A stretch of 64,000 nt of DNA from Egibacter rhizosphaerae (GTDB taxonomy: Bacteria; Actinomycetota; Nitriliruptoria; Euzebyales; Egibacteraceae): the NCBI RefSeq assembly GCF_004322855.1, contig NZ_CP036402.1, positions 2,356,001 to 2,420,000 of the forward strand, given 5' to 3'. The notes beneath the pieces were generated by a model. That model was not told where the DNA came from and did not search any database. It saw only the letters and a list, made by a program, of their open reading frames with translations. Positions 25,324 to 59,634 of the stretch are shown in pieces. Numbering within the stretch: the stretch's first letter is position 1; each line of letters starts with the position of its first letter. The translations under genes and the position numbers were made by a program.

Positions 25324-26781
25324 TCAGGGGCAGGGTTCGGGTTCGACCGTGAGCTCGTCGAAGTCGTTCGCGCCCTCCACCAGCACGCAGGCCTCGGAGT
25401 CGTCGAACTGGTCGTGCACACCGACGGCCGTGACGCCACCGCCCTCGGTGAACAGCTCCACGCTCACGTCGGGGTCGAGCTCCGGCGCCTGCTCGGCGAG
25501 GTCCTCCCACGCGTCGACGTCGTCGACCGCGTCGCCCTCGTCGAAGCCGAAGTCCGGTTCGTGCACGCTGCCGGGCGCCTGCTGGTAGGCCAGGCCCTCG
25601 GCGAACATTACGGCGTAGCCGCCCTCCGGCCCGCTGAACTCGTCGTCGAACTCGTCGTCGAACTCGTCATCGAACAGGTCGTCCTCGTCGAGTTCGAGCT
25701 CGTCGTCGAAGAGCTCCTCGTCGTTCAGAAGGGGGTCGTCGGCGGGATCGAGCATGTCGCCGAACATGCTCTGGAAGCCCTCGACGACGCCGACCACGTC
25801 CCACTCGGCCGCGTCCTCGGGCACGTCGATGGCACCGCTGAACTCCTCGAAGTCGAGCCGCACACCGAACGACTCGACGTCGTCGGGCATCTCGTCGGCG
25901 TCGGCCACGTCCCAGTCCGCGAACTGGGTGAAGTCCGCCTCGATGCGGGTCAGCTCACCGCCGTCGACCCAGACGTCGGTCGTGAACTCCTCGTCGGGGA
26001 CGTCGCCCATGTCGAGGTCCTCGGCACCGGGGCCGGCCGGTGCGTCGAAGACGAGGTTCCCGGTGTCCTCGACGAACCGGGCCACCGCGGGCAGGGGCGC
26101 GCTGACCGCGAGGTGCTCCCCGACGTCGTCGGAGTCGACGTACTCGACCGCGACGTCCTCCTCGTAGAGCCGCTCGAGGTCCTCGAGGATCTCCTCCTCG
26201 GCCTCCTCGAAGGCCTCCTCGAGATCGGAGAAGGACTCGTCGCCCATCTGGCCGTCGTCGAGCTCCTCGAGCTGTTCGAGGGCCTCCTCCACGCCCACGA
26301 TCGCGATCCACTCGCCGTCGAAGAGCGCGCTCGTGGGGAACTGCAACATCCCGCCGAACATGCCCAGGGCCATCTCCATCTCCTGGACCTCGGACTCGCT
26401 GCCGTCGAACACCTCGACCAGGTGGTCGACGTCCACGCGCACGAAGATCTCGTCCTGACCCTCGGCACGCATCTCGAACGCGTCCCCGCCATCCACGACC
26501 GCAGCGAACTCGAACGCGTCGTCGTCGAACCCGAACGACGTGCGCAGCGAGGAGTTGAGCCACGTCTCGGCATGCTCGGGTTCGAGTCCGTCATCCTGGA
26601 AGAGGGCAATCAGCGAGTCCTGATCGGCCAGTACTGACGTGTCGATGGTTGTCCCGCCGCTGCCCGCCAAATTCTCTAGCGCCTCGTCCAGCGCCCCCCG
26701 AGGATCCTCCTGCGCGCCTGACCCGCATGCCGTGAGTAGTAGCATCAAGCCCGCGGTAAATGCGAAGACAAGCAACCTCAT
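25324..26781 (-). CDS. Acidic lipoprotein of unknown function
   Basis: The 485-residue precursor has a signal peptide ending in the lipobox LLLTAC, so the mature protein should be lipid-anchored outside the membrane. The body is strikingly acidic. It recalls LppX/LprG-type or DUF6612-like lipoproteins by layout (two beta-sheet halves, FVRVDVDHLVEVFDG; ELTRIEADFTQFADW) but I do not recognise the family. An internal (D)DEFDDEF run comes from a 12-bp DNA repeat. The ATG at 26781 has GGGAGGT upstream. Confidence 0.75.
   Translation of the reverse strand: MRLLVFAFTAGLMLLLTACGSGAQEDPRGALDEALENLAGSGGTTIDTSVLADQDSLIALFQDDGLEPEHAETWLNSSLRTSFGFDDDAFEFAAVVDGGDAFEMRAEGQDEIFVRVDVDHLVEVFDGSESEVQEMEMALGMFGGMLQFPTSALFDGEWIAIVGVEEALEQLEELDDGQMGDESFSDLEEAFEEAEEEILEDLERLYEEDVAVEYVDSDDVGEHLAVSAPLPAVARFVEDTGNLVFDAPAGPGAEDLDMGDVPDEEFTTDVWVDGGELTRIEADFTQFADWDVADADEMPDDVESFGVRLDFEEFSGAIDVPEDAAEWDVVGVVEGFQSMFGDMLDPADDPLLNDEELFDDELELDEDDLFDDEFDDEFDDEFSGPEGGYAVMFAEGLAYQQAPGSVHEPDFGFDEGDAVDDVDAWEDLAEQAPELDPDVSVELFTEGGGVTAVGVHDQFDDSEACVLVEGANDFDELTVEPEPCP
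25636..25683. repeat. 12-bp in-frame tandem repeat in the acidic lipoprotein gene
   Basis: Four 12-bp units (consensus GAACTCGTCGTC, last unit diverged) encode repeated DDEF on the reverse strand. The in-frame length keeps the gene open and allows copy-number change. Confidence 0.85.
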
Positions 26782-27074
26782 CACGTACCTCCCGTCTGTG
26801 GAAGCGTTGATACTAGCGGGTTCGGTGACCTTCCGGTGACGACCATCCACTCCCTTTCGGGCAATGCGATGCCGGGATGAGAACGCCACGTCCTCCGCGT
26901 CGTCCTCAACGGAACGGGCATTAGGCCGTGACCGGTGACAGCGTGGACGCCCGCTCGCGACGCACCGGGCATCCGCGCCGTGGCCCCCGGTTCGGACCGT
27001 GGCCGCGCCGGTGAACTTCCGCGACGTGCGCTGCGTATCCCCTCGCGAGGAACCCGTCGACACGGAGGCTCGTG

Positions 27075-49570: not shown

Positions 49571-49772
49571 AGTTCGGCCCGAGCCCGGCCGCCATGGGTG
49601 CGGGGTTTCCCGTACAGCCGTTCGCGGGGTCCTCCCGACGCGGGGTCGCGGAGGCGTTGCCTACCGTCGCACTCGTGGGAGGCCCGGCATCCGGCTCCGG
49701 TCCTGAGGGACGCGACTGAAGGGGATCCGCGCCGCACCCGTCGTGCACGAGGCATGGAAGGGGAGGATCGTG

Positions 49773-51098
49773 ATGGTGCGTCGCAGCGCGTGGGTGGCGG
49801 GGCTGCTGCTGGCCGGTGTGCTCGGCCTCCTGGCCCTGGTGATCGGGGTGGGCGTGGTCACGGACCGACCCACCGACACGGTGGTGACGATCGACCGCGA
49901 CCTCCCCGAGGTGGTGACCTTCCTCGAGGCGGAGCGCGCCTTGATGGACCACCACGACGTGGACTACACCGAGTACGCGGTCACGGTCGAGGACCCGGCG
50001 CTGCGCGTCCGGGTGCTCGAGGTCGGCGAGGGACCGCCGGTACTGGTCCTGCCCCCCGCGGCGGGGGAGGCGGCTCGCCTGGCCCCCCTGCTCGGTCAGC
50101 TGGAGGGCTACCGGTTCCTGCTCGTCAACCTCCCGGGTGGCGGAGCCAGCGACGGTATCGACCTGCGGGCGGTCGACCAGCGCCCGATGGCTCGCGCCAC
50201 GCTCGATGCCGTGTATGCCCACTTCGGCCTGGACGAGGTCCCCGTCGTCGGGGCTTCTGTCGGCGGGACCTGGGCGCTGTGGTACGCCCTCGACCGTCCC
50301 GAGCGCGTGAGCGCCGTCGGGCAGCTCGGGGTGCCCGTGGCCGTGGAAGGCACGGTGGTGCCTCCCGCGCTCGTCGTGCTCGGCATACCGGGCGTGGACC
50401 GGATCGCTGCCGCGACGGTCATGGTCTCGGATGCGCCGTCCGACGCCGCCGACAGCTTCGAGGAGGCGTTCGGCCACCCCAACGGGACCGCGCAGCGGCT
50501 GCCTGCGGCGGCCCTCGAGTTCGAGCACGCCGTGCAGCGACTGCCGACGTACGCGCTGACGTGGCGCAGCCTCGCCCAGGACAGCCTTCGCATGGCCGGG
50601 TTCGGTGGTTGGGCGACCACGGTCGAGATCCGTTCGGACGAGCTGGGTGAGCTCAAGTCCCCCGTCCTGCTCGTGTGGCCCTCCGAGGATCCGTTCGGTG
50701 GCCCCGCGGTCGGCGAGGAGCTCGCGGGCCTCCTTCCGGATGCCCGCCTGCACATCGCGGGCACCGGGCACCTGCCGTGGCTCGACGACGCCGAGGGGGT
50801 AGCCGAACTCCTCGACCGTTTCCTCGATGCCTCGGGGCCCGCGGCTGGGCCTGACGCGTCGAGACGGTGGCCGACGGCCGGCTCCTCGACGGCCAGCTCG
50901 ACCGCCTCGGCTAGTGCAGTCGACCAGCGGCGGAACCGTCGTGGATCAACTGCTGCGGCGACATCTCCGCCGAGCGCTTCCGGAGCTCCAGCGCATCCCT
51001 GGCCTGGCCGAACGAGACGACCAACACGCATCCCAGACGCAACCCTTGACAGAGGTTTGATCAACTGTCAGATTTCAAATTGGGACTCGCGAGACTGA
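49773..51098 (+). CDS. Membrane-anchored alpha/beta hydrolase with read-through tail
   Basis: The protein has an N-terminal membrane helix (VAGLLLAGVLGLLALVIGVG) and an alpha/beta hydrolase domain with nucleophile Ser in GASVGGTWA, Asp in PSEDPFGG and His in AGTGHLPW. The fold should end near residue 355 (about 50838). The remaining 85 residues to the stop at 51098 are low-complexity Ser/Ala/Arg/Pro and overlap the promoter-like region of the next operon, so the original end seems lost or the stop was displaced. ATG 49773 is 6 nt after AGGGGAGG. Substrate unknown. Confidence 0.8.
   Translation: MVRRSAWVAGLLLAGVLGLLALVIGVGVVTDRPTDTVVTIDRDLPEVVTFLEAERALMDHHDVDYTEYAVTVEDPALRVRVLEVGEGPPVLVLPPAAGEAARLAPLLGQLEGYRFLLVNLPGGGASDGIDLRAVDQRPMARATLDAVYAHFGLDEVPVVGASVGGTWALWYALDRPERVSAVGQLGVPVAVEGTVVPPALVVLGIPGVDRIAAATVMVSDAPSDAADSFEEAFGHPNGTAQRLPAAALEFEHAVQRLPTYALTWRSLAQDSLRMAGFGGWATTVEIRSDELGELKSPVLLVWPSEDPFGGPAVGEELAGLLPDARLHIAGTGHLPWLDDAEGVAELLDRFLDASGPAAGPDASRRWPTAGSSTASSTASASAVDQRRNRRGSTAAATSPPSASGAPAHPWPGRTRRPTRIPDATLDRGLINCQISNWDSRD
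51046..51074 (+). promoter_or_regulatory. Candidate promoter and operator of the low-GC operon
   Basis: TTGACA (51046-51051) and CAGATT (51069-51074) are spaced by 17 bp; the -35 is perfect, the -10 weak. Between them lies TTGATCAA (51057-51064), a perfect palindrome that could be an operator. Two CTCGCGAG palindromes (51086-51093, 51133-51140) follow. The GC drop begins here. Confidence 0.5.
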
Positions 51099-51156
51099 CG
51101 CGGCTAGCAGCTCTCCCCGGGGTCGTTCGCCCCTCGCGAGCGGGCCTCGGGGCCTG

Positions 51157-51193
51157 GAACCGTCGGTCGGTGCCTCGGCGGCCCCGACGGTTC
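51157..51193 (+). promoter_or_regulatory. Perfect 10-bp stem in the operon leader
   Basis: GAACCGTCGG (51157-51166) and CCGACGGTTC (51184-51193) form a perfect stem with a 17-nt GC-rich loop, ending 33 nt before the M24 start and 23 nt before its GGAGG site. No T run follows. It may be a leader RNA structure or protein-binding site; I do not recognise a riboswitch class. Confidence 0.5.
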
Positions 51194-51226
51194 ATGCTTC
51201 ATCTGGCGTAACCATCGGAGGTTGGG

Positions 51227-52384
51227 ATGACGAACGCGTGGGAAGCCAAGGCCAGTCCATTCCCTATGGACGAGTACGAAACCCGCCTCGAGAACGTCCG
51301 CCGCGAGATGCACGCACAAGCGTTGGACGGTCTGCTCGTCATGGGGCCCGAGGACCTTTACTACCTCACTGGTTACCGCTCGATGGGCTACTTCGCCCAC
51401 CAGGTGCTGATTGTGCGGCCGTCCGGGGAACCGCTCATGCTTTCAAGGGTCCTCGAGCAGCGGATGTACCTCGCCAACTCGTGGAGTCAGCGCTACCACG
51501 CGTACGGGGACGACGAGAATCCGATTGAGGCGACCATTGAAGCTCTCCGCGGTGAAGGGCTCGGCGCCGGGAATCGGCTTGGTGTGCCGCTCGGGAGTAA
51601 GCACCTATCTCCTGTGGACGCCGTCAAGTTGCAGGACGCCATGCCGGGCGCGGAATGGGTTGACGCGACCGGACTCGTGGCCCGCCTGCGGTCCACCAAG
51701 TCCGACCGGGAGATTGAATACATCCGCCAGGCAGCGAGTTTCACCCGAACTGCGTTCCGGGCCGCCGCCGAAGCTGCAGCGGAAGGGAAGACGGAGAATG
51801 ACCTGGCAGCAGCCTTTCTCGGCTCCATGATTGCAGAGGGTAGTGAGAAACCAGCTAGTGGCCCGCTGGTCGGGTCAGGCCCCCGTTCGTCGTACGGCCA
51901 CAGCTCTTGGGAAGGTCGGCCCCTTGAACGTGGCGACCTGATCTTCCTGGAAGGGGGGGGCTGTGTCCGTCGCTACCACGCAGGTGCGATGCGCACCATC
52001 GCCATTGGCGAGCCCAGCGAGCAGGCCCGCGCATTGGAGGAAGGCAGTCGCGCCGCCGCGACGGCTGCGGTGGAGGCGTTGAAGCCCGGCGCGACATCCG
52101 GAGACGTCGATAAGGCGTGTCGCGACGCTGTTGCTGAACTCGGCTTAAGTGAACACTTCCGCCACCGCACCGGATACTCAATAGGGATGGGCTTTAACAA
52201 TTGGATCGACGGGTTCAGTCTCCGTCCCGCCGGTGACGAGGAGATCAAGTCCAGTATGGTTTTCCACGTCGTCCCGTTCCTCAGTACTCCGGACTTCGCA
52301 GTAGCGTTGAGCGAGACAGTACTAGTAAGTCCCGAGGGCGGTGAGCGAGTGGTCGCCTTGCCTCCTGAGCTCATTGTTCGGTAA
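51227..52384 (+). CDS. M24-family (creatinase/ectoine hydrolase-like) enzyme
   Basis: The 385-residue protein has the N-terminal creatinase domain (MDEYETRLENVRREMHAQAL; DLYYLTGYRSMGYFAHQVL) and a C-terminal pita-bread domain (DREIEYIRQAASFTRTAF; FRHRTGYSIGMGFNNWIDGF; VALSETVLVSPEGG). The metal-binding Asp pair is replaced (LEGGGCVRRYHAGAMRT), as in metal-free members such as creatinase and the ectoine hydrolase DoeA/EutD, so it may open a cyclic or guanidino C-N bond rather than act as an aminopeptidase. GGAGG precedes ATG 51227. First gene of the low-GC operon. Confidence 0.85.
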   Translation: MTNAWEAKASPFPMDEYETRLENVRREMHAQALDGLLVMGPEDLYYLTGYRSMGYFAHQVLIVRPSGEPLMLSRVLEQRMYLANSWSQRYHAYGDDENPIEATIEALRGEGLGAGNRLGVPLGSKHLSPVDAVKLQDAMPGAEWVDATGLVARLRSTKSDREIEYIRQAASFTRTAFRAAAEAAAEGKTENDLAAAFLGSMIAEGSEKPASGPLVGSGPRSSYGHSSWEGRPLERGDLIFLEGGGCVRRYHAGAMRTIAIGEPSEQARALEEGSRAAATAAVEALKPGATSGDVDKACRDAVAELGLSEHFRHRTGYSIGMGFNNWIDGFSLRPAGDEEIKSSMVFHVVPFLSTPDFAVALSETVLVSPEGGERVVALPPELIVR

Positions 52385-52408
52385 CTCCGTGCGCGGACAG
52401 GAGGGGCC

Positions 52409-53397
52409 ATGACTCGGATTGTCTCGTGGGAAGACATGGAAGCCATAAATATGGCCCCACGAGACATCATCGAATTGACGGAAGAAGTTTACGTTCGCGA
52501 TCATGCTGGCGACGTGGAAGTTCCGGACAAGATTGGTGTTCATCCCCCTCGAGAGAATTCTCATTCCTCCACGCGATGCCCGCGTGTCTGCCGTACCGGC
52601 GCGCGGTCGGGATGAAGTGGGTCGCGTACTACCCGGGGAACACCCACGAAGGGTTGGTGGACTCCACTGGGATAGTCGTATTGAACGATTACGAGACGGG
52701 GCATCCGAAGGCAATCCTGGACGGCATGTGGATTACGTTCGCGCGAACCGCAGCGTGTGCAGCAGTTTTTGCCCGGTATCTCACAGCACGGCGGAACCCC
52801 CAGAGCTTGGCCCTGCTTGGCGCCGGCGGTCTGGCTCGTTGGTCGCTCGCCATGCTTTCTGAGGAGTTCACTTCGCTGAGTGAAGTGCGGGTCACCTCGA
52901 GGAGTAGGGAGAGCCGAGACTCCTTCTGCAAGGAGTTGGCACCGCTAGGGGCCTGGAACCTGCGGTCGTGCGAAACGGCCGAAGAGGCGGTGAAGGATGC
53001 CGAGATTGTGGTCAGCGCCATCGTGCCGCACGCGACGCCACCGTTTCGGGCGGAGTGGTTGGCGCCCGGCTCTCTCCTAATTGCGCTCGATCACCTCCAT
53101 GCGTGGGATAGTAGAACCTTTATCGAGGCCTCCCGCCTCATAGGGGACGCCGAGCAGTTCCTGGTCAACGCTGCTCCAAACTATGGTCTGGATTGGGGGT
53201 CCTTGGGTGGCTACGGCGATATAGGCGCAATCGCGGCGGGGGCAATGGCGGCACGGGAGCCCGACGAGTCACGTCTCGTCGGAATACCGACTGGTAAGGC
53301 GAGCATCGACATCGCGCTGGCTGCGGATCTCCTCACACGTAACGGAGCCAGCGGTCGGCTCGCGGTGGACCTCGGGCCGAGACAGGTGGGGCACTGA
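52409..53397 (+). pseudogene. Ornithine cyclodeaminase/mu-crystallin family gene with one frameshift
   Basis: The N-terminal 51 codons (WEDMEAINMAPRDIIELTEE; VPDKIGVHPPRENS) and the rest (FLHAMPACLPYRRAVGMKWV; LGAGGLARWSLAML dinucleotide motif; VVSAIVPHATPPF) match one OCD-family protein of about 330 residues. They lie in different frames, joined near 52556-52563, where one base appears lost. Family members deaminate ornithine or reduce cyclic imines; EutC of ectoine use is one. GGAGGGG precedes ATG 52409. Either a real inactivation or a sequencing error; neighbours are intact. Confidence 0.8.
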
Positions 53398-54608
53398 TGC
53401 TGTTACGCAACTTCAATCTGCTTGATGTCCTTTCAGGCGAGATCCGGGAAGGGTGGTCGCTGCAGGTCGAGGACGGGCGAATTTTTTGGATCGGGGAAGA
53501 GGACCGCGTGCCGGGGGCCGGCGAGCCAGTGGACCTCGGCGGGGCAACAGTCATGCCGGGACTGATCAACTGCCATGTGCACTTGAGCTACGGCGGTGAG
53601 GCAGATCCGAGCACGCGGGTGAACCGTGGCGCCGGGGAAGAAGCGCTCGTGGCGGCCCGACACGCTTGTCAGACCCTCAATGGTGGAGTGACGACGGTAA
53701 GGGACTGCGGGAGTCCAACGCGGGCGGCGACCGTGGTGCGGGAGGCGGTTTCCCGCGGAAGACTGGCGGGGCCGCGCGTACTGTCGAGCGGACGCCTGAT
53801 CACCATGACCGGCGGCCACGGACATTGGACCGGGGTCGAGGTGGACGGTGCCGACGGTGTGCGAACCATGGTGCGGGAGGAGATCAAGCACGGGGCGGAT
53901 TGGATCAAGTTCGCCGCGAGTGGGGGAGTGCTGACTCCCGGCACGCTCCTTGGCGCCCCTTCCTTCACTGCGGAGGAGATGGCCGCGGGCGTCGAAGCGG
54001 CGGCCTTCTTGGGGCGGCGAGTCGCCGCCCACGCAATCGGCACCGAGGGGATTAAGAACGCGCTTCGAGCGGGCGTCACCTCGATCGAGCACGGCAGCTA
54101 CCTCGACGCCGAGGCGATCGAAATGATGCTGGAGCGGGACGCCACGCACGTGCCGACCTTGTCGGCCTACTACAACGTGATCCACCACGGCGTCGAGGGC
54201 GGAGTACCACAAGAGGCCGTCAATAAGGCAGCGGGGGCCCATGAGGACAACCGCAACAGCCTCGTTCGGTCGTTGGAAGCGGGGGTCAACGTAGCCGTCG
54301 GAACGGATGCGGGGACGCCCTTCAATTCACACGGAGGGGTCGCCCTGGAACTGGAACTGATGGTCGACGCGGGCGCTTCCCCACTGCAGGCCCTGCAGTC
54401 TGGGACCATTAACGCTGCGCGCAACCTCGGGATCGAGTCCTTCTGCGGCTCCATCGAGAAGGGCAAGTCGGCAGACCTGCTGGTCCTCGACCGCAGCCCC
54501 TTCGAGGACTTGAACGTGCTCAGGGAGCCGCGCGCTGTGATGGTCGCCGGTAGTTGGGCGCCGCCCTGCGACACCCCCGAGGGCCCGCTGGGTCTGCTGG
54601 GAACGTAA
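53397..54608 (+). CDS. Metal-dependent amidohydrolase (imidazolonepropionase/Xaa-dipeptidase-like)
   Basis: The 403-residue enzyme has the amidohydrolase metal motifs: HxH in NCHVHLSYGG, the carboxylated Lys in WIKFAASGG, His in AAHAIGTEG, His in SIEHGSYL and Asp in GTDAGTP. The small beta-sandwich is built from both termini (PGLINCH entry; KSADLLVLDRSP exit). Close relatives by pattern hydrolyse N-acyl amino acids, Xaa-Arg/Lys dipeptides or imidazolonepropionate. TGATG overlap with the OCD gene shows coupling. Nuclear role in this operon: hydrolysis of an amide or cyclic amide. Confidence 0.88.
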   Translation: MLLRNFNLLDVLSGEIREGWSLQVEDGRIFWIGEEDRVPGAGEPVDLGGATVMPGLINCHVHLSYGGEADPSTRVNRGAGEEALVAARHACQTLNGGVTTVRDCGSPTRAATVVREAVSRGRLAGPRVLSSGRLITMTGGHGHWTGVEVDGADGVRTMVREEIKHGADWIKFAASGGVLTPGTLLGAPSFTAEEMAAGVEAAAFLGRRVAAHAIGTEGIKNALRAGVTSIEHGSYLDAEAIEMMLERDATHVPTLSAYYNVIHHGVEGGVPQEAVNKAAGAHEDNRNSLVRSLEAGVNVAVGTDAGTPFNSHGGVALELELMVDAGASPLQALQSGTINAARNLGIESFCGSIEKGKSADLLVLDRSPFEDLNVLREPRAVMVAGSWAPPCDTPEGPLGLLGT

Positions 54609-54633
54609 AGGCACGAAGGTGAGAGGACGTAAG

Positions 54634-55575
54634 GTGCAGGGTACCGCCTATTTCGACGGCGAATTCATCGATCTCCGGGAAGCGAAAGTCAGCGTCCGGT
54701 CACACGCGTTCAACTATGGCATCAGTGTTTTTGAGGGTATACGCGGTTACTGGGTGGAAGCAGCCGGGGAGGTCCGAATCTTCAGACTTGAGGATCACCT
54801 CAGGCGCATGGTCAGCTCGGCAAAATTGCTGCAGATGAACGACTTCCAAGACGTCGAATGGCTCACCCAGACGTGTTGCGATCTTATCCGCAGAGGTGAC
54901 TTCCGAGAGAACGTCTACCTGCGTCCCATCCTGTACAAGGATGCACCGGATGGGCTCGGAGTGCGCCTCGATCGTGCCCCCGATGCGTTTCTGGCCTATC
55001 TGTTCCCGCAAGGAGACTACGTTCCCGCGGACCGACCGCTGCGCGTGGGCGTCGGGTCGTGGCGACGGCTTGACGATAACGCCATCCCAGCGCGAGGAAA
55101 GATCGGCGGCGCGTATGTGAACGCGGCGTTAGCAAAGACGGAGGCTGTGCAGCGAGGGTATGACGAGTGCGTGATGCTGACACAGGCCGGCACAGTCGCT
55201 GAGGGCAGCACCGAGAACATATTCCTCGTTGATCAGTCCGGGAAGCTTGTTACACCGACAACAACGGACGACATCCTCGTCGGGATCACGCGCGACACCG
55301 TCATGCATCTAGCGCGGCAGGAACTCGACCTCGAGGTAGAGGAACGCGTGGTGGACCGCTCTGAGCTGTATCGGGCCTCAGAGGTGTTTCTGTGCGGGAC
55401 TGGGGCAGAGATCGCTGCCGCGGGCGAAATTGATGAGCGCCAGGTGGGGACGGGGAAAATCGGACCTGTGACCCAGCGCTTGCGCGAACTCTATGCGGAG
55501 GCGGTTCGCGGACAACTTGCGGGCTACGAGGAGTGGAACACGAGGGTGACCCTGCCGAGGGGGGAGCCTGGCTGA
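54634..55575 (+). CDS. Class IV aminotransferase (branched-chain type)
   Basis: The protein of about 313 residues has the bacterial BCAT pattern: RSHAFNYGISVFEGIRGYW, the PLP Lys region ARGKIGGAYVNAALAKTEA, the GYDECVMLTQAGTVAEGSTE phosphate-binding run with ENIFLVD, GITRDTVMHLA and FLCGTGAEI. It transfers amino groups between branched-chain-like amino or keto acids and glutamate. In this operon it may transaminate a breakdown product. GTG 54634 with GAGAGGA upstream is preferred; GTG 54619 is possible. Confidence 0.9.
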   Translation: MQGTAYFDGEFIDLREAKVSVRSHAFNYGISVFEGIRGYWVEAAGEVRIFRLEDHLRRMVSSAKLLQMNDFQDVEWLTQTCCDLIRRGDFRENVYLRPILYKDAPDGLGVRLDRAPDAFLAYLFPQGDYVPADRPLRVGVGSWRRLDDNAIPARGKIGGAYVNAALAKTEAVQRGYDECVMLTQAGTVAEGSTENIFLVDQSGKLVTPTTTDDILVGITRDTVMHLARQELDLEVEERVVDRSELYRASEVFLCGTGAEIAAAGEIDERQVGTGKIGPVTQRLRELYAEAVRGQLAGYEEWNTRVTLPRGEPG

Positions 55576-55659
55576 GAGGGGGGTGGACGGCAAGTCGGGA
55601 GGCCCGCGTCTGAATGGTCGATGAATACGAGTTTCAGAGCACCATAAGCGAGGTTAGAC

Positions 55660-56730
55660 ATGGCTAGATCCTTGAGCGTCATACTGGTCGGTCTTGTGGG
55701 TTTGCTCGCAATGGCCTGTGCCGATGACACCGACGAAGTTGAAGCCGAGCCACCTGAGGATGAGGAGGCCGATGAAGAGGCGAACGAGGAGACCGACGAG
55801 GAATCAGCGGGAGAAGCAGATATCGAGCTGAGTGCACTCATTTATGAGGAACCCGAGAAGGAAGAGGATAGTATCAACTTCTTTCGGCTCTACATGGACC
55901 GAGTGGAGGAAGAGAGCGACGGGCAGATCGTTTTTGAAGACGTGGCTGGGCCAGAAACAATTCCCACCGGCGACCAGATGTCGACGGTCGCCGATGGAGC
56001 CTTCGACATGGTGTTGACGTTCACAGCGCATGCGGGGGACGTTCCCGAGGTGGAGACCGCGCCGCTCTCTAGGTTAACCCCCGAGGAGGAACGCGGAAGC
56101 GGCTATTACGACTGGTTCGTCGAAGCCCACGAGGAGCGCATCGGTGTGACGCCGATCGGTCGGGCAACGACCAACTCGGGGTTCCAGATCTTTTCCACAG
56201 AGCCTATTGAGGGCATGGATGACTTGTCGGGGATGGATATCCGTTCGCACTCAGGGTATGACCCCTTTTTCCATGCGTTGGGAATGGAAACGCATCACAT
56301 GGATATCGGTGAGATTTACTCTGCCCTCGACCGCGGTGTTGTTGAGGCGGCGCCCTACCCGCTGTACGTCTACGACCTCGGAATTCACGAAGTCGCAGAG
56401 TACGCAGTAGAGCCGGCGTTCGGGACTTCCCACTCCACGTGGAGTTACATTAACACCGATACCTTTGAGGGGATGTCGGAGGACCTACAGGAACTGATGC
56501 TCGGTGTGCAGCAGGACCTCGAAGGGGAGATCGACGAACTAATCGAAGGGTGGCATGCCGAGGAGCGCGAGCGACTGGAGGAGGCTGGCATGGAGTTCCT
56601 CTCGCTGCCCGAGGGTGAGGCCGAGGAATTTCAGGAACTCTACATAGATTCCCGGTTCGAGGGGCTCGTGGAGGACGACTTCTTAACTGCGGCGGAGGCG
56701 GAAGAGGCACGCGAACTCACGGGAAACTAG
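55660..56730 (+). CDS. dctP: TRAP transporter solute-binding lipoprotein, DctP family
   Basis: The 356-residue precursor has a lipobox (LLAMAC) and an acidic linker, as expected in a monoderm where the binding protein must be tethered. The DctP fold follows (FFRLYMDRVEEESDGQIVFE; GDQMSTVADGAFDMVLTFTA; GMDIRSHSGYDPFFHALGME; IYSALDRGVVEAA; WSYINTDTFEGM). The usual R of the carboxylate site lies in the LSGMDIRS region. It should deliver an organic-acid-like ligand to DctQM. Confidence 0.9.
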   Translation: MARSLSVILVGLVGLLAMACADDTDEVEAEPPEDEEADEEANEETDEESAGEADIELSALIYEEPEKEEDSINFFRLYMDRVEEESDGQIVFEDVAGPETIPTGDQMSTVADGAFDMVLTFTAHAGDVPEVETAPLSRLTPEEERGSGYYDWFVEAHEERIGVTPIGRATTNSGFQIFSTEPIEGMDDLSGMDIRSHSGYDPFFHALGMETHHMDIGEIYSALDRGVVEAAPYPLYVYDLGIHEVAEYAVEPAFGTSHSTWSYINTDTFEGMSEDLQELMLGVQQDLEGEIDELIEGWHAEERERLEEAGMEFLSLPEGEAEEFQELYIDSRFEGLVEDDFLTAAEAEEARELTGN

Positions 56731-56806
56731 AACGTTCTGCAGTGTCCTAACAGCAGCCAAGGTGTGAGCGACTGATGGCAAGGCTGACCGACGGTGACCG
56801 TCCCCG

Positions 56807-57328
56807 ATGACTAGTATGGGAAGGTTGTTCGACAGGGTACTCGACATCGCGGGCGCGCTGGTCGGCTTTCTGGTTGTGTTCCAAGCCATCGCGGTCGCGG
56901 TGAACGTCGCCACCCGCTTCTTCTTTGACTTCACGATCGCGGCGGTGCTGGGGCTCACGGAGTGGAGCGTCGTGTGCATGGCATTCCTGGGGGCCGCCTG
57001 GTTGGAGCGCGAACGAGGCCATGTTGCCATGGATGCGATAGTGGATCGCTTCCATGGGCGCAGTAGGGTAGTACTTGAACTATTGGCCGTGGCGGTCGGG
57101 CTCGTGGCGTCAGCGGTCCTCGCCTACTACGGGACGAAGGTAAGCTACGACATGTGGGTGGCGGGAACCCACGACTTTTTTCGGATGCAGTACCTGCCGC
57201 AGGCGTACGTAATGGCGGTTATTCCGGTCGGGGGCGCACTTCTCTTCCTCCAGCTGCTGCGGCGCGGATGGACAGCGGCCACCAGCCGTCAAGATCGAGC
57301 GGAACCCGGTGAGGCGGGAGATGCGTAG
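56807..57328 (+). CDS. dctQ: TRAP transporter small permease, DctQ family
   Basis: The 173-residue protein has four membrane helices and the DctQ signature (LTEWSVVCMAFLGAAWLERE then RGHVAMDAIVDRF), the conserved acidic-aromatic cluster of small TRAP subunits. It complexes with DctM. ATG 56807 and ATG 56816 are both possible. Confidence 0.9.
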   Translation: MTSMGRLFDRVLDIAGALVGFLVVFQAIAVAVNVATRFFFDFTIAAVLGLTEWSVVCMAFLGAAWLERERGHVAMDAIVDRFHGRSRVVLELLAVAVGLVASAVLAYYGTKVSYDMWVAGTHDFFRMQYLPQAYVMAVIPVGGALLFLQLLRRGWTAATSRQDRAEPGEAGDA

Positions 57329-57464
57329 CGGGCGTTGGGGCAAGTCGGGTTCGCGCAACGGCATGGTGGCGGGCTGTTGGTCGTGTTTGGTTATGGCGAG
57401 AGCAACGAGCGGGTTGGTCGGAGGGGTCGTGCGCATGCCGAGTGCTGAGGGGCGAGGCTAGCTC

Positions 57465-58775
57465 ATGGAATGGCCGCTAGTTCTCGTGCTCCTCTTCGGT
57501 GGGTTTCTAATTCTGGTCCTGCTCGGCGTACCGGTCGTGTACGCGTTCTTCGGGGTCAACATTGCTTGGCTCTATGTGCTTCTCGGCAGTGCGGGCTTGG
57601 AGCAGCTTATCCGGAGCGTCTACGGCTCGTTGGCCCTCTTTGTGCTCTTGCCCATCACTTTGTTCATCTTCATGGGCGAGTTGATGTTTAGATCAGACGT
57701 TGCCCAACGAGTCCTGGACGCATTGGACGCTTGGCTGGGCAAACTGCCCGGCCGGCTGTCGATTCTTGCGGTCGTGGCAGGGGCCCTCATGTCGGCTTTG
57801 AGCGGGGCGAGCATCGGGAGCACTGCAATGCTTGGGGGCACGCTCGTGCCGGAGATGCGTCGGCGCGGCTACAGCAAGGCCATGAGCCTAGGGCCGGTGC
57901 TCGGCAGTGGCGGCATCTCGATCATGATTCCACCGAGCGGGCTCGCAGTTATCCTCGCCGTGATAGCTGGCATCTCCGTGGGCGCGACTCTGATCGCCAT
58001 CATTATTCCCGGGGTCATACTGGGTCTTGCCTACGCTAGCTACATAATCGCGCGCGCTGTGATGCGCCCTGAGGAAGCGCCCCGCTACGACGTGAAGCGC
58101 ATCCCGATGTCCGCGCGCTTGTGGATGGGTTTGAAGTACATAGCCCCTTTGGCGCTGATACTTTTTCTTGTGGTTGGTACGATCTTCCTGGGGATTGCCA
58201 CACCGACGGAAGCAGCGGCGCTCGGTGTGGTGGGGGCCTTCGTTCTAGCGCTCGTCTATGGGGGTTTCTCATGGGCGGGCTCGCGGCGGGCTGTCATGAC
58301 GACCGCGCGGACGTCTGTGATGGTGCTCGTTCTGCTAGCTGGCGCGGAGGCATTCTCCCAAGTGCTGGCGCTGACTGGAGCGCACCGCGGACTCGCGGAC
58401 TGGACAGTCAACCTGCCGCTCCCACCGATCCTTATCATCGCTATGATGCTGGTCATGACGCTTATTCTTGGTATGTTTATTGGCGGCGTCCCGCTAATGC
58501 TTATCACCCTGCCGATATTCATCCCTGTGGTCGAGACACTGGGATTCAGCCCCCTGTGGTACGGGGTGCTCACGCTACTCGCCGTGGAGATGGCACAGAC
58601 GACGCCCCCCTACGGAATCCTACTATTCGTAATGAAGGGTGTGGCTCCGGCGGATATTACTATCGCAGATGTAACCCGAGCCGCGCTACCCTATATTGGT
58701 ATTGACGCTGTCGTGATGGTTATACTTATCGTCGCGCCCGCGCTGGTACTGTGGTTGCCCGGCATGATGGGCTAA
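57465..58775 (+). CDS. dctM: TRAP transporter large permease, DctM family
   Basis: The 436-residue protein has about 12 membrane helices with DctM motifs (MGELMFRSDVAQRVLDALDA; ALSGASIGSTAMLGGTLVPE; SGGISIMIPPSGLAVILAVI; FLGIATPTEAAALGVVGAF). The broken-helix Na+/substrate motif GASIGSTA is intact. It imports the ligand with Na+. The 136 bp between dctQ and dctM show no gene. Ribosome site weak (GCGAGG). Confidence 0.93.
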   Translation: MEWPLVLVLLFGGFLILVLLGVPVVYAFFGVNIAWLYVLLGSAGLEQLIRSVYGSLALFVLLPITLFIFMGELMFRSDVAQRVLDALDAWLGKLPGRLSILAVVAGALMSALSGASIGSTAMLGGTLVPEMRRRGYSKAMSLGPVLGSGGISIMIPPSGLAVILAVIAGISVGATLIAIIIPGVILGLAYASYIIARAVMRPEEAPRYDVKRIPMSARLWMGLKYIAPLALILFLVVGTIFLGIATPTEAAALGVVGAFVLALVYGGFSWAGSRRAVMTTARTSVMVLVLLAGAEAFSQVLALTGAHRGLADWTVNLPLPPILIIAMMLVMTLILGMFIGGVPLMLITLPIFIPVVETLGFSPLWYGVLTLLAVEMAQTTPPYGILLFVMKGVAPADITIADVTRAALPYIGIDAVVMVILIVAPALVLWLPGMMG

Positions 58776-58866
58776 CAGGGATAAGCCCCAGCAATGCACC
58801 TGAATCCGAAAATGGAGCCCCCGAGACTTCCCAAGTAGTGGGAAATCGATTGCGCGGAGGTGGATG

Positions 58867-59634
58867 ATGGATGAGAGTATTTCTCAAGTCGAGCTTGGAC
58901 GAGGGAGCATCCGTAGCATCGTTGACCTTACACAACCGCTCTCGGAGCATACACCCGTTATCCCGATACCGCGGCCATACGAGGGCTCTCCACGGTTCGA
59001 GATGCACGAAATCAGTCGGTACGACGAGCGCGGTCCGGTCGCGTACTGGAATTGGTTCGTTGGCGGAGAGCATGTGGGAACCCATTTCGATGCGCCTGTC
59101 CACTGGGTGTCGGGGCAAGGGGGTGAAACGGTCGACCAGGTTGAGCCCCGCTGGCTCATCGGGCCGGCGGTCGTTCTGGACCGTGTCGCGCAATGCGAAA
59201 AGGACCCCGACTATTTGCTCGACATTCCCGATGTGGAGGAGTTCGAGGGGCAGCATGGACCGCTGCCCGACGGTGGGTGGTTGCTATACCGGTCGGGATG
59301 GGGGCGGTACGCCCACGAGGAGAATCGTTTCCTCAACGCGGACGAAAGGGGCTGTCACACGCCCGGGGTGACCGCACGCTGTGCGCGATGGCTGAGCGAG
59401 GAGCGCCCGATTTGCGGTTTCGGGGTCGAGACAGTGGGAACGGATTCCGGGCTCGCGTGGGAACAGGATCCGCCGTTCCCGATCCATCACTATCTGCACG
59501 GAGCCGGCAAGTACGGCCTCACGCAACTTGCGAACCTGGAGCAACTGCCTGAGACGGGGGTCACACTCGTCGTGGCTCCGCTGCGGATCGTCGGGGGGTC
59601 GGGCAGCCCCGCTCGCGTCTTCGCGTTGGTTTGA
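58867..59634 (+). CDS. Cyclase family protein (kynurenine formamidase-like)
   Basis: The 255-residue protein has the cyclase/KynB metal motif HxGTHxDxPxH as GEHVGTHFDAPVHW, preceded by VDLTQPLSEHTPVIPIP and followed by LLYRSGWGR and the conserved FGVETVGTDSGLA. Family members hydrolyse N-formylkynurenine, other formamides, or cyclic imides and isatin. Last gene of the low-GC operon, so it likely acts in the same pathway. ATG 58867 or 58864; GAGGTG lies just upstream. Confidence 0.88.
   Translation: MDESISQVELGRGSIRSIVDLTQPLSEHTPVIPIPRPYEGSPRFEMHEISRYDERGPVAYWNWFVGGEHVGTHFDAPVHWVSGQGGETVDQVEPRWLIGPAVVLDRVAQCEKDPDYLLDIPDVEEFEGQHGPLPDGGWLLYRSGWGRYAHEENRFLNADERGCHTPGVTARCARWLSEERPICGFGVETVGTDSGLAWEQDPPFPIHHYLHGAGKYGLTQLANLEQLPETGVTLVVAPLRIVGGSGSPARVFALV

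Follow-up and report, generated by a model that had tools for sequence, protein, structure and literature searches.

The ectoine clusters (uehABC-eutABCDE and doeABCD) combine a metal-free M24 hydrolase of the DoeA type, a member of the OCD family and a transporter of the TRAP type; in degraders of indole and indole acetate, the isatin hydrolase clusters combine a cyclic amidohydrolase (hereafter, the cyclase) with an oxygenase, a thiamine pyrophosphate (TPP)-dependent decarboxylase, a coenzyme A (CoA) ligase and a 2-aminobenzoyl-CoA enzyme. The metal motif (HxG[T/A]HxDxPxH) and the aromatic pocket (WXW/FXW) of isatin hydrolase have been defined, and the signature GLQC or GLAS was linked by the same authors to isatin hydrolase activity (PMC6117287). 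In this study, we analyzed a window of 64,000 nucleotides (the whole stretch of DNA; NZ_CP036402.1, positions 2,356,001 to 2,420,000) from the genome of Egibacter rhizosphaerae, a single contig of 4.64 Mb, in which an operon of eight genes on the plus strand (51227-59634) shares components with both systems. We tentatively read it as a catabolic operon that was acquired horizontally and acts on a carboxylic acid with an amide bond, a reading that we rate slightly short of even chances. The genes, separated in gene order by 24, -1, 10, 84, 76, 136 and 88 nucleotides, are as follows, with the evidence in parentheses:

51227..52384, + strand, metal-free M24 (DoeA/creatinase-like) hydrolase, 385 amino acids (Pfam PF00557 and PF01321; NCBIfam DoeA_2; alignment; PDB 6twk)
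52409..53397, + strand, gene of an NAD(P)-dependent dehydrogenase or imine reductase of the OCD/mu-crystallin family, frameshifted (Pfam PF02423; reading frames; codon-position GC)
53397..54608, + strand, COG1228-type amidohydrolase of the Xaa-Pro/Xaa-Arg carboxypeptidase group (Pfam; NCBIfam; PDB relatives; metal-ligand motifs)
54619..55575, + strand, class IV pyridoxal 5'-phosphate (PLP) aminotransferase of the IlvE type (PF01063; NCBIfam cut-offs passed; PLP-lysine motif; PDB 6gkr)
55660..56730, + strand, DctP, the substrate-binding protein of the TRAP transporter, in which the carboxylate arginine (R195) is conserved (PF03480; structural model)
56807..57328, + strand, TRAP small permease DctQ (PF04290)
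57465..58775, + strand, TRAP large permease DctM (PF06808; TIGR00786 over the cut-off)
58864..59634, + strand, cyclic amidohydrolase of the isatin hydrolase clade (PDB matches; motif table)

Pfam and NCBIfam confirmed the families M24, OCD, Amidohydro_1, Aminotran_4, DctP, DctQ, DctM and Cyclase. The first-pass annotation had counted eight to nine genes on a single strand; the strand and the number eight agree with the gene calls, and its family assignments held with the exception of the cyclase, which it had called KynB-like. The reading as an acquired catabolic operon is supported by the single strand, the short gaps and the shared foreign composition, and a set that joins three hydrolases of C-N bonds to an importer of carboxylates and a transaminase would suit the stepwise hydrolysis of an amide-bearing acid. 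In the proposed scheme, DctPQM, with the carboxylate arginine of its binding protein, would import an organic acid; the isatin hydrolase-type cyclase would open a lactam adjacent to a carbonyl group; the M24 protein, of the DoeA type, would perform metal-free hydrolytic C-N cleavage; the COG1228 amidohydrolase would split N-acyl amino acids and dipeptides; and the IlvE-type aminotransferase would deaminate the amino acid thus released, with 2-oxoglutarate as the acceptor. The OCD dehydrogenase may once have catalyzed the oxidation or reduction of an intermediate that is an imine or an amine. That the enzymes act in one pathway, and the order of the steps, we infer; the imported substrate may possibly be aryl or N-heterocyclic. 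A more specific proposal is an undescribed, oxygenase-free pathway in which the ring opener, the metal-free M24 protein and the COG1228 amidohydrolase act in series on an imported amide acid of the N-heterocyclic or N-aryl kind; it appears rather doubtful to us. Ring opening, amide hydrolysis and transamination, as guessed in the first-pass annotation, fit the families found, and nothing speaks for the guanidino compound that it had also considered; its statement that nothing in the window names the substrate is supported. As it stands, the locus is a catabolic operon of known families with an unassigned substrate. If functional, it would offer a testable case of an unassigned carboxylate-amide pathway, and would place two poorly assigned groups in a new context: metal-free M24 proteins beyond DoeA/creatinase, and actinobacterial relatives of isatin hydrolase.

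The guanine-plus-cytosine (GC) content of the operon was 58-67% per 1-kb bin, versus 70-76% in most of the flanking bins, as the first-pass annotation had noticed. The codon and GC deviation analysis that it had proposed agreed: the GC content at third codon positions (GC3) of the seven intact genes was 0.69-0.79 (z, -2.3 to -4.8), versus 0.887 +/- 0.040 for 51 other genes of the window, and codons that the host seldom uses (TTA, ATA and CTA, among others) were enriched 7- to about 30-fold. The operon DNA looks foreign, since its GC3 deviates from that of the other window genes. The low GC content is not a property of TRAP genes in this organism, because the other TRAP regions checked in the same genome were host-like (GC, 0.70-0.73). 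The donors were likely Alphaproteobacteria. No tRNA genes were found within the window, no repeats worth naming were found at the operon borders (each border was examined singly), and the promoter and terminator scan gave nothing over the chance level. As for the flanking genes, the right-flank methyltransferase was present in six relatives with no other queried flank gene nearby; the queries excluded the left alpha/beta hydrolase (49743-51098). Outside the operon, a further GC dip (0.665) was observed at 26001-27000 of the window.

The best PDB matches of the cyclase were isatin hydrolases (E, 7e-70 to 2.5e-62). The identification as a KynB arylformamidase was rejected, because the score against the KynB model TIGR03035 was 31.9 bits (cut-off, 223) and the protein has GLTQ where KynB has the I(L/I)E motif; the cyclase belongs to the isatin hydrolase clade. 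It carries the metal motif (HVGTHFDAPVH at residue 70) and the aromatic pocket motif (WNW within YWNWF, residue 61), and has GLTQ rather than the activity-linked GLQC/GLAS signature. GxTQ was carried by most relatives in the phylum with a readable motif (L131 and L137 read GLTQLRNL; the motif of L133 was not returned by the pattern used). Since GxTQ is the usual form in these relatives, GLTQ looks like a variant of the clade, probably without loss of function. Nine of the phylum relatives (L121, L123, L125, L128, L129, L133, L137, L139 and L140) adjoin a TPP-dependent decarboxylase, encoded as one 550-residue chain or as two small chains, which suggests decarboxylation of isatinate; L133 and L137 additionally encode an acyl-CoA ligase along with a flavin enzyme resembling 2-aminobenzoyl-CoA monooxygenase. 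In the genome of E. rhizosphaerae itself, a 54% match to the latter flavin enzyme was found far from the window, and the search for the TPP decarboxylase gave generic matches only (28-33%). The operon thus resembles the isatin hydrolase clusters in the clade, metal motif and aromatic pocket of the cyclase, and differs from them in the GLTQ signature; it also lacks their oxygenase, their TPP decarboxylase, their CoA ligase and their 2-aminobenzoyl-CoA enzyme.

In TRAP binding proteins, a conserved arginine is needed for carboxylates (PMC4646407). The window DctP matched PF03480 with this arginine conserved (R195), and its model had a clear TRAP fold (Z 26-27 to TRAP binding proteins). Its closest PDB sequence was 4mnc/4mni, whose ligand is presumably benzoylformate; the 2-amino derivative, 2-aminobenzoylformate, is isatinate, which isatin hydrolase forms. 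A sequence relative of DctP (30%) in Aminobacter plasmid pBAM2 sits with a ring-hydroxylating dioxygenase. A second DctP-DctQ-DctM-cyclase set was found in the own genome (C1:2816.3-2820.3 kb; L088, 5294-9278), of which DctP was 36-38%, DctM 38-39% and the cyclase 63-65% identical to the window proteins. This set adjoins acyl-CoA ligase, thiolase and DUF35-like genes upstream and a P450 on the other side, and has no M24, OCD, amidohydrolase or aminotransferase gene. Because of this second set, the TRAP genes plus the cyclase may be a separable module. The window may accordingly hold two adjacent modules, TRAP plus cyclase for an aryl-glyoxylate or isatin-like compound and M24-OCD-amidohydrolase-aminotransferase for a separate peptide or amino-acid pathway; the increase of the gap from 10 to 84 nucleotides at the aminotransferase/DctP border also favors this division, whereas the strand, short spacing and composition common to all eight genes suit one acquisition. 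We regard two modules as possible and, on balance, rather unlikely.

As for the M24 protein, the alignment confirmed the metal-free type predicted in the first-pass annotation. Of its five expected metal ligands (D, D, H, E, E), four or more are replaced: the first Asp is Glu, the second Asp, the His and the first Glu are lost, and the last Glu is unclear in the alignment. The ligands are lost also in DoeA-like relatives and retained in peptidase relatives, and in the tree the window protein was placed among metal-free M24 proteins with no supported sister, its exact place being unsure owing to long branches. An alternative reading is an ectoine/hydroxyectoine pathway in which the amidohydrolase and the class IV aminotransferase take the roles of DoeB and DoeD. 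It would account for the DoeA-type metal-free M24 protein (best PDB match, DoeA 6twk; E, 1e-37), an OCD protein as in EutC and a TRAP transporter as in UehABC (PMC5924519). However, the M24 protein scored 263 bits against DoeA_2 of NCBIfam (cut-off, 575) and 182 bits against EutD (cut-off, 613), while the DoeA of a genome of the same class (L089), used as a positive control and located in a DoeB-DoeD-DoeA-DoeC-like cluster, scored 745 bits; the window protein also has residues deleted from the segment that reads PPxWxEG in DoeA-like proteins. No DoeB/EutE deacetylase is present in the operon, the best match in the own genome being of 29.8 bits over 139 residues, and in the cluster (the only region of the genome searched for it) there is no class III aminotransferase DoeD/Atf, the aminotransferase there being of class IV (PF01063). 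By sequence, the TeaA/UehA binding proteins rank well below 4mnc against the window DctP, and the amidohydrolase and the cyclase are extra to the ectoine clusters. A search for EctC gave no match, and neither did its controls. Ectoine use was therefore rejected on the M24 score and the absence of a convincing DoeB genome-wide, and we consider the substituted ectoine pathway highly improbable; the first-pass remark that the locus recalls ectoine use without belonging to it was borne out.

The COG1228 amidohydrolase has the metal-ligand motifs (HxH, Lys, His, His and Asp) in order (HVH, WIKF, AAHA, IEHG and GTDAG). Its best NCBIfam match was Xaa-Pro dipeptidase (314 bits, under the cut-off of 500), and among its PDB relatives are enzymes of the Xaa-Pro and Xaa-Arg type as well as further amidohydrolases, of which some presumably degrade ochratoxin. 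The aminotransferase passed the IlvE cut-offs of NCBIfam (PRK06606, 326 versus 279 bits; ilvE_I, 283 versus 246 bits), had 6gkr as its best PDB match and contains the expected PLP-lysine motif. These two assignments would also suit the scavenging of dipeptides, proline-containing or other, in which the M24 and COG1228 proteins serve as prolidases and the aminotransferase takes the released branched-chain amino acids; the M24 protein, however, is without the prolidase metal ligands, and a cyclase of the isatin hydrolase type would have no role, so that we find this explanation quite improbable.

The OCD gene contains a frameshift near 52553-52566 that divides it between two frames (affected region, 52409-52630). 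An AGGAGG-like ribosome site and the ATG at 52409 start a frame that stops after 68 codons; about 50 N-terminal OCD residues are encoded in this opening frame, and the Pfam match to OCD (PF02423) lies in another frame, starting at profile position 51 of 314. The codon-position GC pattern changes frame at about 52559. The first 68 residues alone gave no Pfam match, and their OCD character was assigned from the position of the break and a reading of the sequence. The nearest named families are SbnB and archaeal alanine dehydrogenase. The split gene is either a pseudogene or an assembly error. Since the gene is frameshifted, the pathway would be shortened, helped by another dehydrogenase, or decaying. 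In the last case, the whole operon may be a non-functional island in which the frameshift marks the loss of the pathway, which is in line with the poor fit of its codons to the host and the lack of a regulator. The other seven genes, on the other hand, have uninterrupted full-length reading frames and keep their conserved motifs, and a single indel may be an assembly error; decay of the whole island thus seems unlikely to us.

For the distribution of the gene set, M24, DctP, the cyclase and the amidohydrolase were searched in the same 396 genomes of the phylum under strict thresholds, and OCD in 189 relatives. The genome-wide search thus covered five of the eight families (all except the aminotransferase, DctQ and DctM); the surrounding regions were inspected for all matches but four of those of the cyclase, some of them on short contigs, and Alphaproteobacteria were covered through plasmids only. 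Matches were obtained for M24 in five other genomes (34-35%), for DctP in one (32%), for the amidohydrolase in 15 (42-47%) and for the cyclase in 32 (48-65%); OCD gave none among the 189 relatives. A pattern-based scan of genome contigs reached only 24-35% identity. The search for the gene order in other genomes proposed in the first-pass annotation was thus run in part (phylum genomes and plasmids), and the complete set was not encountered a second time in the 396 genomes, in which the families were unequally searched, or in the plasmid matches examined. At the DNA level, no match was found among plasmids, and none among viral contigs. The first-pass annotation had allowed for a known pathway with precisely this gene set; the literature search found no paper with it. 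The gene set is a new combination of known families, possibly decaying.

Several observations weigh against an acquired operon for an amide-bearing acid. Judged from its frames, the OCD gene appears broken; no regulator gene is present inside the eight-gene operon; and the TPP decarboxylase and CoA ligase found with the cyclase in other genomes are missing from it. The specificity of the amidohydrolase and the aminotransferase is too broad to name a substrate. The DctP model had a middling pLDDT (predicted local distance difference test) of 69.7 and was similar to many TRAP binding proteins about equally, so that the modeling suggested in the first-pass annotation yielded the fold and not the substrate. 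No region fetched from outside the own genome had two of the window families beyond the TRAP genes, and the plasmid sets were weak (in L106, M24 35%, class IV transaminase 26%, DctP 24% and DctM 34%; in a Nicoliella plasmid, an amidohydrolase adjoining a branched-chain transaminase).

Similar sets made of other parts were seen in two kinds of clusters. In the hydantoinase/oxoprolinase operons L141 (273-12892) and L143 (5900-17405), amidohydrolase relatives (45-47%) among the closest found are accompanied by an M24 protein, by enzymes that open cyclic amides and by a permease, a combination that may parallel that of the window; they differ in having two HyuA/HyuB pairs for the cyclase, an MFS permease for the TRAP transporter and an M24 protein that keeps the metal ligands. 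Because of these ligands, and because other amidohydrolase relatives (e.g., L144-L146, L095 and L096) are without the L141/L143 set, the likeness is an analogy and not shared descent. In the plasmid clusters L103, L104 and L106 (rhizobial, Salipiger), a metal-free M24 protein (35-38%) occurs with the 5-oxoprolinase PxpABC, and L103 and L106 add a class IV (D-amino-acid) transaminase and TRAP genes, as in the window; unlike in the window, 5-oxoprolinase and a Zn-dependent hydrolase take the place of the amidohydrolase and the cyclase, and GntR regulators are present. In a Pseudomonas plasmid, a transaminase is near an OCD gene. Elsewhere (L093, 109-7041), a relative of the metal-free M24 protein was observed by eye next to an ABC transporter of the spermidine type and a protein resembling histone deacetylases.

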